A stretch of 34,995 bases of DNA from Bacteroidales bacterium (GTDB taxonomy: Bacteria; Bacteroidota; Bacteroidia; Bacteroidales; JAOZQN01). The notes below the pieces were generated by a model. That model searched no databases. It was not told the origin of the DNA and saw only the letters and a program-made list of their open reading frames with translations. The stretch lies in contig JAOZQN010000007.1 in assembly GCA_029932195.1 (NCBI GenBank), forward strand, positions 1 to 34,995. Direction: 5' to 3'. Made by a program: the position numbers and the translations under genes. Of this stretch, positions 18,856-26,153 are shown one piece after another (the stretch's first letter is position 1; every line of letters begins with the position of its first letter).

Positions 18856-20790
18856 ATGATTTCTGTAAAAAAAGATTTTAATAAAACACCAACTGCTTTG
18901 CTTTCTGGCAAAAAAGACGCATGGAAAGACAAAAGTGTTTTGAGTGAACTCACTGCACTTTATAATGGCAAATGTGCTTATTGCGAAACCAAAACAACCG
19001 ATTTACAAATAGACCATTATCGCCCAAAAGATAAATATCCTTGGCTTGCTAATGAATGGAGTAATTTATTGCCCGTTTGTGAAGATTGCAATAATGCCAA
19101 AAGAAATAAATTTCCCATTGATAACAGAAAAGTAGAACCCGAAAATAAAAACGCCGAAATATTAATAAAAGAAGAACCAATAATTATTAACCCAGAAATT
19201 GACACAGCAGAAAATCATTTTTATTTTAACAAAGGCGGACTTATTTACGGACACACAAACAGAGGTAGAAAAACTGTTGATATATTAGATTTAAACAGAG
19301 CTTCTTTAATAAAAGAAAGAAAAAAACTTTACGATTTCTTTTTTGAAGGCTTGAAAAATAATATTATAAAAGAAAAAAGAGACAAAAATTATTATAAAAA
19401 TTTAAAAGAAGCAACATTTGAACAAAAAGAGTTTTCACTTTTTGGACATCAGATTTGTTATCAATTTGCAAAATTAACTCTTGATGAAGTAATTGAATAT
19501 ATTAGTATAAATAGATATATGATATTTGACGAAGAACATGATTATATGTTTAAAAAAGGAATTTCTGAGGATAATATTGAAATTAGTGAGATTAGTGATA
19601 TTTATGAACAAGAGATAGTATTAGAATTAGATGAATATTATAAAAATATATTTGAATATGAACCAAAGAAAAAATTAGAATTACCATTTTCAATAACAGA
19701 CCTTTCCATAACTAAATTTCAAGGAATAAAACAGTTAGATATAAAAAATATACTCGCAGACACACAATGGATTTTTCTTACAGGAGAAAATGGTTTTGGA
19801 AAAACATCAATACTTAGAGCTATTTTATTAGGACTAATTGGAAACAAAGAATTTAGACAGGAGGAGATAGATAAAAATACAAAAATTGAATTAAAATTAT
19901 TTAATACTCTGATGTCTGAATATTTTGTAAATGAATCCAAAATGTATTACAATATTTTTGGAACACATTTTCAGAAACAGTTTAATTCTGTAGTTGTAGC
20001 TTACGGAGCAAATAGAACTAATCTGAAAAAAGATGATAGTAAATCAACAATTTCGGGTAATCTATTTGAAAAACCAGAATCAGATTTATATAATTTTGAA
20101 AGAAGGTATAAAGATTTAAAACTTTTTCCAAAAATAAATAAAGAACAAATTAATTCTTTTGAAAATTTCTTTAAAAAAATTATACCTAATTTAAGTAAAA
20201 TAGACATTAATTCTGAAACATCAGAAGTTATTTATTTTGAAAATGCTGAAAATGGAGACGAACTTCCTCCTGTAACTTTTAATAAATTAGCTATGGGAAT
20301 GCGAAGTGTTTTGGCAATGAGTGGAGATATTGTTCAAAAATTATCGGAAGGATACCTTGCTGTTAAACCATTTAAGGAATATAAAGAATTTTCAGGCATT
20401 GTAATAATAGATGAATTTGATAACCACCTTCACCCAAAGTGGCAAAAAATGCTTGTGGAAAAATTTACAAAAATATTTCCAAAAGTTCAGTTTATAGTTT
20501 CTACGCATAGCCCAATACCATTGCTTGGTGCACCAAAAAACTCGGTTGTGCTAAAAGTAGATAGAACAAAAAAAGACGGCATAACTGCAGAAAAACTTGA
20601 TATTGATATTTCTACACTTTCGCCAAACTCAATTTTGACTTCACCTATTTTTGGGTTTAGAGATATTATTTCAGAGGCAAATAAAGACTTGTCTAAATTA
20701 AGAACAGAAGATGACTACGATGAGATTTTGTTTAATAAAGAAATTGAAAAAAGACTTAATAAATTTGTTAATGAAAATAAATCAGAATAA
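18856..20790 (+). CDS. HNH nuclease-AAA ATPase fusion, Septu-like (PtuB-PtuA) defence protein
   Basis: The 644-residue protein joins two functions that are separate in Septu. Residues 1 to about 215 form an HNH nuclease of the PtuB/TIGR02646 kind: CAYCE (C40, C43), the catalytic-type DHYRP (H54), WSNLLPVC (N70, C75) and C78. Residues about 278-644 form an ABC/SMC-type ATPase: a strand start at SITKFQGIKQLDI, Walker A GENGFGKT (310-317), a signature-like LAMGMRSVLAM (478-488), Walker B IVIIDE (D519, E520) followed by NHLHPKWQ, and the switch histidine in STHSP (H551). The ATPase half resembles PtuA, which pairs with PtuB to cleave nucleic acid upon phage infection. The next gene, three bases later, encodes a second HNH protein. 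A fused HNH plus a free paralogue is unusual. No retron reverse transcriptase is nearby. Confidence 0.85.
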   Translation: MISVKKDFNKTPTALLSGKKDAWKDKSVLSELTALYNGKCAYCETKTTDLQIDHYRPKDKYPWLANEWSNLLPVCEDCNNAKRNKFPIDNRKVEPENKNAEILIKEEPIIINPEIDTAENHFYFNKGGLIYGHTNRGRKTVDILDLNRASLIKERKKLYDFFFEGLKNNIIKEKRDKNYYKNLKEATFEQKEFSLFGHQICYQFAKLTLDEVIEYISINRYMIFDEEHDYMFKKGISEDNIEISEISDIYEQEIVLELDEYYKNIFEYEPKKKLELPFSITDLSITKFQGIKQLDIKNILADTQWIFLTGENGFGKTSILRAILLGLIGNKEFRQEEIDKNTKIELKLFNTLMSEYFVNESKMYYNIFGTHFQKQFNSVVVAYGANRTNLKKDDSKSTISGNLFEKPESDLYNFERRYKDLKLFPKINKEQINSFENFFKKIIPNLSKIDINSETSEVIYFENAENGDELPPVTFNKLAMGMRSVLAMSGDIVQKLSEGYLAVKPFKEYKEFSGIVIIDEFDNHLHPKWQKMLVEKFTKIFPKVQFIVSTHSPIPLLGAPKNSVVLKVDRTKKDGITAEKLDIDISTLSPNSILTSPIFGFRDIISEANKDLSKLRTEDDYDEILFNKEIEKRLNKFVNENKSE

Positions 20791-20793
20791 ATT

Positions 20794-21504
20794 ATGATTA
20801 AGGTAATAAAAACAGCAGATGTTCCAGACAGTTTAAAGAATGAAAAATTTCAAAAACATTTAATAAGATTAAAAAACAATAAAGCAAAAGTATCTGGTGG
20901 TTATTATGGAGCAAAAGATGTTAGAGAAAGTCTAAAAAATGAATTTAATAATAAATGTGCTTATTGCGAAACAAAAGAATTTAGTCCTGAAATTGAGCAT
21001 TATAGACCACAAAGCAAATATGAATATTTAAGTTATGAATGGACAAATTTAATACCAGTCTGTCGTAGTTGTAATCGTAGTAAATCAAATAAATTTCCTA
21101 TTGAAAATAAAATCACAATAAAGAATTTAGAAAAATTAGGAACTGCATTAAATATTTTAAATGAAAAAGAAAAACCATATATTCTTAATCCTGAAATAGA
21201 TAGCCCAAAAGAACATTTTAGTTTTAATACATTGGGCGAAATTTATAGCAAAACTAAAAAAGGCAAAATTACAATCTGTGTCTGTAATCTTAATGATGAA
21301 ACTTTAATATACAGACGAAAAAAAGAATACGACAACATTTTGAAAATTATAGAAATGGCAAAATTAAATAATACCAATATTGGAAAAAAGACTTTAAATA
21401 TTATCAAAGAAGTAGTAAATAAAAATAAAAAAAAAGAACACGAATATTCATTGTTTTGGCAAAATATTTCTCTTGATTTAGAAAATTTGATTGACAACAA
21501 CTAA
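20794..21504 (+). CDS. Stand-alone HNH nuclease, PtuB-like, partner of the HNH-ATPase fusion
   Basis: The 236-residue HNH endonuclease is of the PtuB/TIGR02646 kind, with CAYCE (C55, C58), EHYRP (H69), WTNLIPVC (N85, C90) and C93. It aligns over its whole length with the N-terminal domain of the preceding fusion. Shared blocks include CAYCETK, NPEID followed by HF.FN, and an EYSLFW/EFSLFG end. The two are therefore paralogues, probably from a domain duplication. Its N-terminus is about 15 residues longer. The start ATG is three bases after the upstream stop, so translation is probably coupled. It contains no ATPase domain and presumably needs the upstream protein for activation. It is followed by aspS, which is unrelated. 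Confidence 0.87.
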   Translation: MIKVIKTADVPDSLKNEKFQKHLIRLKNNKAKVSGGYYGAKDVRESLKNEFNNKCAYCETKEFSPEIEHYRPQSKYEYLSYEWTNLIPVCRSCNRSKSNKFPIENKITIKNLEKLGTALNILNEKEKPYILNPEIDSPKEHFSFNTLGEIYSKTKKGKITICVCNLNDETLIYRRKKEYDNILKIIEMAKLNNTNIGKKTLNIIKEVVNKNKKKEHEYSLFWQNISLDLENLIDNN

Positions 21505-21521
21505 AATAAAAATATATAAAA

Positions 21522-23270
21522 ATGTATAGAACACATAATTGCGGCGAATTAAAAATTTTGGACGCAAACAAACAAGTTACACTCAGCGGTTGGGTGCAAA
21601 CAAATAGAAATCTCGGTGGCATGACTTTCATAGACCTAAGAGACCGATACGGAATTACCCAACTCGTTTTTAATTTAGATACAAACGAAGAACTTTGTAA
21701 CAACGCCAGAAAACTTGGTAGAGAATATGTTGTAAAAATAACTGGAACAGTTGCTGAGCGGAGTAATAAAAATAAGAAAATCCCAACAGGAGAGATAGAA
21801 ATAATAGTTTCGGAACTGGATATTTTAAATAAATCGGAAACTCCACCATTCACAATTGAAGACGAAACCGACGGAGGTGAAGAATTACGAATGAAATATC
21901 GTTATCTAGATTTACGTAGAAATCCGTTACGCAAAGCATTGGAAATTAGACATAAAATGGTTAGCGAAGTCAGAAGGTATCTTGACGAACAATCATTTTT
22001 TGATATAGAAACTCCCGTTCTCATAAAATCTACTCCCGAAGGAGCGAGAGATTTTATTGTGCCTTCACGAATGAATGCAGGAAGTTTTTATGCACTCCCA
22101 CAGTCGCCACAAGTTTTTAAACAGCTACTTATGGTGGCAGGTTATGATAAATATTTTCAGATAGTTAAGTGTTTCCGTGATGAAGATTTGCGAGCAGATC
22201 GTCAGCCAGAGTTTACACAAATTGATTGCGAAATGTCGTTTGTAGAACAAGACGATATTTTAAATACTTTTGAAGGACTTGCAAAACATTTGTTCAAAGA
22301 GCTAAAAGGTGTTGAAATAGAAGGTGATTTTATTCAAATGCCTTATGCAGAAGCAATGGAAAGCTACGGAAACGATAAGCCAGACCTGCGTTTTGATATG
22401 AAAATAAATGATATTTCGGAAACAGTAAAAGGCAATAATTTTAAAGTTTTTGATGAAGCAGAATATATTGGAGGAATCTGTGCAACAAATTGTGCATCAG
22501 ATTATTCTCGTAAGAAACTTGATAAGCTAATAAAATTTGTTCAAAAACCACAAATTGGAGCAAAAGGTCTTGTTTATGTAAAATGCAATGCTGATGGAAC
22601 TTATAAATCGTCGGTAGATAAATTTTATTCGCAAGACGACCTAAAACAATGGGCAGAAAAATTAGACGCAAAACCAAACGACCTTATTTTAGTGATTTCT
22701 GGCGATAAGGTTCAGAGTCTTAAAGCACTAAGCGAATTAAGATTAGAAATGGGACGCACTCTCAATCTTATGGACAACAATAAATTTGCACCACTTTGGA
22801 TTGTAGATTTTCCTCTTTTAGAATGGGACGAAGAAACAGAACGTTATCATGCTATGCACCACCCGTTTACATCACCTAAAAAAGAAGACTTTGAGCTTTT
22901 GGAAACTTCACCAGAAAAAGTTAGAGCAAATGCTTATGACCTTGTTATCAATGGAGTAGAAATTGGCGGAGGCTCAATTCGTATCCACGATAGCAAATTG
23001 CAAGCAACAATGTTCAAACTACTTGGTTTCACCAAAGAAGAAGCACAAGAGCAGTTCGGATTTTTGATGAATGCTTTTAAATATGGTGCACCACCACACG
23101 GCGGAGTAGCCTTTGGATTAGACCGTTGGGTTGCACTTTTCAATAATTCGGAAAGCATAAAAGAAGTAATTGCTTTTCCAAAAAACAACTCTGGACGAGA
23201 CGTTATGATAGACTCACCATCATCGGTGGATACGGCTCAATTAGATGAGCTAAAATTGAAATTAGTTTAA
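21522..23270 (+). CDS. aspS: Aspartyl-tRNA synthetase
   Basis: The 582-residue class II synthetase charges tRNA-Asp. It has the N-terminal anticodon-binding OB fold (about 1-105, [20 protein letters not shown]), the bacterial AspRS catalytic core with motif 2 ([20 protein letters not shown]), a GAD insertion domain in the middle (about 270-420), and motif 3 (GLDRWVALF) near the end. The presence of the GAD domain marks the bacterial form. The length is normal. It begins 17 bases after the HNH gene, so read-through from the defence locus is possible, and a strong hairpin follows it at 23273-23305. Confidence 0.97.
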
Positions 23271-25820: not shown

Positions 25821-26153
25821 ATGAAAATCCTTTTAGATGCTAATATTTCTTATAGAGTTGTAAATAAAATTAAAGATGTTTTTCCAAAAGCAAGTCATCT
25901 TAAGTTTCATACATTAGAAGAGTGTGATGATATAAAAATATGGGAGTTTGCAAAAGAAAATAATTATACAATTATTACAAATGATTCTGATTTTAATGAT
26001 TTTTTAATGGTTTGGGGTATGCCTCCTAAAATAATATGGCTACGTATGGGAAATTTATCAACAAAAAATATTATAAAGTTATTGATTTCTAAAAAACAAA
26101 ATATTTTGGATTTTATCAATAACGAGAAAACAGGAATATTAATTTTTGAATAA
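25821..26153 (+). CDS. DUF5615 family PIN-like toxin
   Basis: The 110-residue protein begins MKILLDANISYRVV with the first PIN-type aspartate (D6). It continues with HTLEECDDIKIWEFAKENNY and TIITNDSDFNDF, the second acidic cluster, which matches the DUF5615/Mut7-C-like PIN nucleases. Such toxins are RNases held in check by the partner antitoxin, here the DUF433 protein just upstream. The length is usual. The stop codon lies four bases before the likely holB start, so the toxin is in the same transcript as an essential replication gene. Confidence 0.9.
   Translation: MKILLDANISYRVVNKIKDVFPKASHLKFHTLEECDDIKIWEFAKENNYTIITNDSDFNDFLMVWGMPPKIIWLRMGNLSTKNIIKLLISKKQNILDFINNEKTGILIFE

Follow-up and report, generated by a model that had tools for sequence, protein, structure and literature searches.

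A Septu-type locus from a Bacteroidales bacterium with a PtuB-like HNH domain on its PtuA ATPase and a free PtuB beside it

Genes and features of the locus

The window, i.e., the whole stretch of 34,995 nucleotides from a Bacteroidales bacterium that was analyzed here, carries two adjoining open reading frames on its forward strand. The first (18856-20790) encodes a 644-aa protein in which an HNH domain precedes an ATPase domain; the second (20794-21504), set off by a 3-bp spacer (20791-20793), encodes a 236-aa HNH protein. A sequence-only reading of this DNA had placed both ORFs at these positions and named a set of motif residues, all of which are present. The fused HNH copy has C40, C43, H54, N70, C75, C78, and N79, and the free copy has the corresponding set C55, C58, H69, N85, C90, C93, and N94. 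The ATPase has the Walker A residue K316, the Walker B pair D519-E520, and H551 of the H-loop. The features are as follows.

18856..20790, + strand: PtuA-type ATPase with an N-terminal PtuB-like HNH domain, 644 aa (ORF; PADLOC PtuA1 PDLC00292; NF041760; TIGR02646)
18856..19560, + strand: fused PtuB-like domain, residues 1-235 (Pfam HNH 40-85; secondary-structure order in the AF2 model equal to that of the free PtuB)
19015..19017, + strand: codon of fused H54; 18 of 29 fused homologues lack this His (motif table)
19684..20787, + strand: PtuA ABC/SMC-like ATPase domain, residues 277-644 (profiles; closest solved structures, the PtuAs of retron type I-A and of Septu)
19783..19806, + strand: Walker A, GENGFGKT, with K316 (sequence; Walker A in 29 of 29 fusions)
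20410..20415, + strand: Walker B, D519-E520 within IIDEFDNHLH (sequence; D-E in 29 of 29 fusions)
20794..21504, + strand: free PtuB-type HNH endonuclease, 236 aa, probable catalytic effector (NF041761, TIGR02646, AF2 model and PDB match)
20998..21000, + strand: codon of free H69, intact in 27 of 27 readable partner HNHs (motif table)
21503..23270, + strand: flank with the aspartyl-tRNA synthetase gene aspS, ORF 21522-23270 (ORF; comparison with the same-genus genome G001)

The AspS proteins of G001 and the window are 86% identical, and homology between the two resumes at window base 21503, the end of the free HNH gene. No Septu locus lies upstream of aspS in that genome; the site is empty, and the window locus is therefore accessory. 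The other scanned genes of the window are mostly ordinary according to Pfam (efflux pump genes, RecQ, a glycosyltransferase, DNA polymerase I, an MFS transporter, and GldH). A Pfam scan of the ORFs on both sides found housekeeping neighbours and no obvious or classical defence island, and promoter and terminator scans gave no more matches than shuffled sequence did. At 25821-26153, beside a gene of the DNA polymerase III delta-prime type, a 110-aa DUF5615 protein is encoded (E 2.9e-32); DUF5615 is a family of PIN-like toxins from toxin-antitoxin pairs.

Assignment to Septu

Pfam recognizes an HNH domain (residues 40-85, E 1.5e-7) and an AAA_21 domain (residues 307-553, E 4.1e-19) in the first protein, and an HNH domain (residues 55-100, E 3.5e-8) in the second. 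In PADLOC, the fusion is best matched by PtuA1 PDLC00292, over residues 24-633 at E 3.8e-96; thus, the fused architecture is not a product of chance. The free HNH protein matches PADLOC PtuB1 at E 7.3e-42. Among NCBIfam profiles, the fusion matches PtuA NF041760 (E 1.4e-33) and the free HNH matches PtuB NF041761 (E 1.6e-19). Both HNH domains narrowly pass the TIGR02646 cut-off of 52.15 bits, the fused one at 53.0 and the free one at 54.6. The PtuA, PtuB, and TIGR02646 searches thereby bear out the proposal of a Septu-type locus, and the arrangement of one HNH built into the ATPase with a paralogous HNH in trans likewise fits the sequences of both proteins.

The two HNH proteins had been said to align along their whole length. 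Taken literally this does not hold, as BLASTP aligns 156 columns (residues 10-160 against 27-180, 46% identity, E 2e-38). What stands is a shared fold: PtuB-like profiles cover residues 1-209 of the fusion and 1-234 of the free protein, and the order of helices and strands is alike in the AlphaFold models of the two, which together support a full-length PtuB-like fold for both. The free PtuB was modelled by AF2 with a pLDDT of 91.9, and its best PDB match is PtuB of retron Ec78 (9u9y_H, Foldseek E 3.2e-8). The model of the fused domain is of moderate quality (pLDDT 75, pTM 0.54) and carries no information on domain arrangement. By fold, the fusion matches PtuA at a Foldseek E of 3.6e-17. PtuA and PtuB from retron type I-A and from Septu are the closest PDB relatives, both in sequence and in fold. 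A recent tandem duplication of the HNH within the window was considered and rejected, given that the copies are only 46% identical, fall in different clades, and each have nearer relatives in other loci.

Like Septu type I, the locus is a two-gene operon with an ABC/SMC-like PtuA ATPase followed by a PtuB/TIGR02646 HNH. The PtuA-type ATPase has intact Walker motifs, and the gene of the PtuB HNH endonuclease adjoins it. In Septu, moreover, ATPase and nuclease are separate polypeptides and PtuA itself carries no nuclease domain. Here the window locus differs: its PtuA bears an extra full PtuB-like domain at the N-terminus, which solved PtuAs (matched chains of ~370-550 residues) lack. Judged by its sequence, the locus is Septu in every tested feature except this domain and is treated here as a Septu variant. 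The PtuAB of retron type I-A (Ec78/Eco7, Ec83) is a homologous ATPase/HNH pair and supplies the best PDB matches; in contrast to these systems, no reverse transcriptase or other retron component was found among the window ORFs in the Pfam scan of both sides. The scores also fall far under the cut-offs of the NCBIfam equivalogs for retron Ec78 (NF041760, 116.6 bits against 500; NF041761, 60.7 and 70.6 bits against 150), and membership of a retron was rejected. RecF/SbcC membership was rejected as well, with RecF at 23.6 bits against a cut-off of 172 and RecN at 15.8 against 408.

The fusion is already on record, being contained in the PADLOC profiles PDLC00292, PDLC00288, and PDLC00291 (726-773 positions), PtuA profiles that span HNH and ATPase end to end. 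A Rhizobium fusion (L163), for example, matches PDLC00292 at E 4.6e-246 over positions 7-752, and the window is a distant member. These profiles are labelled only "AAA ATPase domain" and are silent on the fused HNH, the loss of catalysis, and the paired free HNH. No description of an HNH-fused PtuA was found in the literature searched, from whose coverage key Septu structure papers were absent, so that an earlier mention is possible. The fusion is thus catalogued in the PADLOC PtuA profiles and undescribed within the literature searched.

Recurrence and pairing of the fusion

Fusions were sought among relatives, in 396 genomes of the phylum and 295 of the order, and in GTDB species genomes, plasmids, and viral contigs. 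Candidates entered the sample through their similarity to the fusion itself, and 29 distinct fusions remained once duplicates had been removed. They come from Bacteroidota, a Desulfobacterales MAG, an Acidobacteriota MAG, plasmids of alpha-, beta-, and gammaproteobacteria, a Priestia plasmid (Bacillota), and proviral contigs. At least 3 of the 396 genomes that sample the phylum evenly carry full fusions, with the best three candidates per genome scored. No close DNA relative of a fusion on a Klebsiella plasmid was found in 5,426 E. coli genomes.

Directly behind the fusion and on the same strand, an unfused HNH gene follows in 28 of the 29 cases, at a gap of -8 to +10 bp and most commonly with a 4-bp overlap. 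The expectation that the free HNH always follows is therefore met with a single exception (L056/L085), in which the fused HNH is catalytically dead (IDEYRP) and no HNH gene adjoins. The sequence-only reading had named two outcomes that would speak against it, membership of a RecF/SbcC branch and an absence of conserved pairing; neither occurred.

Several plasmid and provirus copies have defence genes as neighbours. L163 lies next to Gabija genes, L271 next to a Shedu gene, L273 next to a reverse transcriptase of a retron, and L268 next to a match to LmuC of Lamassu. These surroundings bear on the possibility that the locus is not a defence system at all and encodes an SMC-like ATPase of DNA repair or housekeeping with a nuclease partner. 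Weak SMC_N and RecF profile scores on the ATPase and the housekeeping genes around the window locus would fit such a function. However, the matches to PtuA and PtuB are far stronger than that to RecF (E 1e-33 versus 2e-5), the same-genus genome lacks the locus at this site, and its relatives elsewhere travel on plasmids and proviruses beside the defence genes just listed. We consider a repair or housekeeping role highly improbable.

Two individual loci deserve mention. On a Priestia megaterium plasmid (L273:2815-6968), the fused PtuA and free PtuB lie immediately next to a retron reverse transcriptase gene (PADLOC RT_III-A) that runs in the opposite direction. In a same-genus genome (contig C604, L081:5203-6011), the free HNH partner is frameshifted into two overlapping ORFs, and the fused copy has an open frame without the catalytic His; either the locus is decaying or the assembly is in error here, one of which is probable.

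Active sites of the fused and free HNH copies

To read the active sites, we aligned 181 canonical PtuBs with the fused HNHs and the free HNHs that accompany them. The catalytic His (H69 in the window) is intact in all 27 readable free partners and in all 179 readable canonical PtuBs. The equivalent His of the fused copies (H54 in the window) is lost in 18 of 29, with eight different replacements (Gln in seven, Arg in three, Phe and Tyr in two each, and Glu, Leu, Lys, and Asn in one each). For His loss in fused copies against free partners, Fisher's test gives p 1.9e-7, a value that is descriptive since the compared sequences are not independent; the count on the tree is the safer measure. On the tree of the fused domain, at least 7 changes between His and another residue are needed, 3 of them forced by well-supported branches. 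The zinc Cys residues of the fused copies are kept in 27-29 of 29 per position. The ATPase motifs are complete throughout, with Walker A in 29 of 29 and the Walker B D-E pair in 29 of 29 (26 by pattern and the other 3 by reading the sequence).

A characterized Septu of E. coli lost its defence when PtuB was mutated at H75 or N91, and likewise when PtuA was mutated at the Walker residues K43 or D316 (PMC13096335). Because these residues are required there, loss of the His in a fused copy implies loss of cleavage. From the pattern of His loss, the retained zinc Cys residues, and these mutants, the fused copy thus appears to decay as a nuclease yet stay folded, and the free copy to remain the nuclease.

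This asymmetry weighs on the alternative that the fused and free HNHs both cut, either at different targets or as a hetero-pair nicking both strands. The full H-N-N triad is kept in 7 of 29 fused copies, that of the window and six others, all from Bacteroidota. In these seven loci both triads are intact, and the nearest relatives of the window (L039, L041) are among the intact cases. However, 18 of the fused copies have lost the His, including close relatives of the window (L061, L079, L009, L040), the free copy never has, and one HNH type suffices in canonical Septu. Two active nucleases therefore seem rather unlikely. The earlier proposal of two nuclease types per complex is accordingly not borne out as a general reading, and it stays conceivable for the window locus itself, whose fused copy has every catalytic and zinc residue, as do the six others. 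The other option offered there, a regulatory subunit, agrees better with the asymmetric loss of the His.

Exchange of the N-terminal module

The fused HNHs of the Bacteroidota type form one clade (support 98/100), which includes an unfused HNH upstream of the ATPase at another locus of the window's genome (L013). The ATPases of these same fusions fall into two distant clades. When the window is compared with L089, the fused HNHs are 45% identical, against 25% for the ATPases and 26% for the free PtuBs; with L086, the values are 44, 25, and 27%. Correlations of pairwise distances are 0.80 for ATPase and free PtuB, 0.60 for ATPase and fused HNH, and 0.51 for fused HNH and free PtuB. Clade discordance, identity contrast, and distance correlations all point the same way: the ATPase and free PtuB travel together as a working pair, and the fused HNH has been handed from one such pair to another. 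This evidence comes from one of two fused groups. In the other group, most of whose members are proteobacterial, Pearson correlations between the three parts are similar (0.72-0.79) and rank correlations are weak; there the fused module seems to have stayed in place. On the ATPase tree, 8 fusion or fission events are counted, 6 of them forced; the figure is an upper-side estimate, as some loci scored as split have an N-terminus that is truncated or highly degenerate (e.g., L138).

L013:3519-6438, on contig C5, is an unfused trio of an HNH with Gln in place of the catalytic His, an ATPase, and an intact HNH, and shows that this module exists in unfused form too. The genome of the window, a 6.7-Mb draft (97.6% complete, 2.2% contamination), holds 31 ATPase-HNH pairs (the window locus and loci L009-L036), all divergent, spread over about 28 contigs with a GC content of 25-32%. 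Many of its PtuAs carry other N-terminal modules: LRR repeats in L020:3272-5440, L027, L028, L035, L015:7649-9958, and L024; TPR repeats in L025, L026 (two genes), and L031; HNH_2, NB-ARC, and TPR together in a 1408-aa PtuA (L012:1510-5736); and a restriction-endonuclease-like domain in L017. Several further PtuAs have N-terminal domains without a known assignment. In the LRR and TPR forms, PADLOC profiles reach only the ATPase part. Since sister PtuAs bear LRR, TPR, or NB-ARC modules in this position, the fused HNH sits in a slot that is filled elsewhere by sensor-like repeats. Among genomes of the same order, five others had 15-31 matches and the remaining 35 had 0-1. Other match-rich genomes were one of Desulfobacterales (93) and a 2.4-Mb genome of Campylobacterales (41).

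The slot also matters for a more specific role, that of an integrated decoy: the fused domain would mimic PtuB or another HNH and bait phage inhibitors, whose binding would switch on the real PtuB. The domain stems from the effector's own family, is often catalytically dead with its fold kept, and occupies the position of LRR and TPR modules in sister PtuAs; in addition, L094 has a related, degenerate domain joined to a GHKL ATPase (see below). A structural or dominant-negative role would nevertheless leave the same pattern, and we hold the decoy to be quite unlikely.

An exchangeable N-terminal module has a precedent of a kind in defence ATPases of the DndF type, which have variable N-terminal domains, including inactive enzyme copies beside active ones (PMC10853773). 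The theme is alike, but the ATPase family is different, and the comparison is an analogy only. What we would regard as new here is the pseudonuclease pattern, together with the exchange of the module.

Proposed function and significance

Taken as a whole, the anatomy of the locus, the conserved pairing of fused and free genes, the unequal conservation of the two HNH copies, and the exchange of the module, each read from comparative sequence data, make it probable, with real room for doubt, that this is an anti-phage operon of the Septu type whose PtuA is modular. The free PtuB would be its nuclease, and the fused PtuB-like domain would serve as an exchangeable regulatory or sensor module and not as a second effector. 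PtuA would assemble with the free PtuB as in the known complexes of Septu, where PtuA:PtuB oligomers of, for example, 6:2 occur, and of retron type I-A. A signal linked to infection would reach the ATPase via the N-terminal module; it may consist of unusual DNA ends, of a nucleotide change, or of a phage protein. An ATP-dependent rearrangement would then free or position the free PtuB, which would cleave nucleic acid. In characterized relatives, the target is DNA (Septu) or tRNA-Tyr (retron Eco7 and Septu EcB88) (PMC11555353; PMC13096335). The fused domain may act as a scaffold, a sensor, or a brake, perhaps by pairing with PtuB or mimicking it. Because the fused triad of the window is intact, residual activity of this particular copy is possible.

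A broader interpretation would treat PtuA as a modular receptor with NLR-like logic, in which one ATPase core and one PtuB effector are combined with exchangeable N-terminal modules (LRR, TPR, NB-ARC-TPR, pseudo-PtuB) in ~31 divergent copies within a single genome. The mostly dead fused domain would then serve as an integrated decoy, or as a mimic of the effector, through which countermeasures of phages against PtuB are sensed. We regard this combined picture as unlikely.

What activates Septu is called unclear in the table of a recent review (PMC12198126). A usually dead effector copy on the ATPase beside a live one would offer a natural handle on triggering and specificity. For annotation, defence profiles silently pool PtuAs that carry a fused pseudo-nuclease with ordinary ones. 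In some environmental Bacteroidales, Septu is not a single system but an enlarged repertoire that includes LRR and TPR modules.

A PtuB-like module also occurs outside PtuA. In L094:4762-6963 (= L171), a degenerate PtuB-like HNH that has lost its His (IKQYIP) is joined to a Methylase_S specificity-like domain and a GHKL/HATPase_c domain. Directly behind this fusion lies a gene for a 304-aa protein without a Pfam match (L094:6969-7883). The arrangement is possibly another defence architecture that uses a PtuB-like module.
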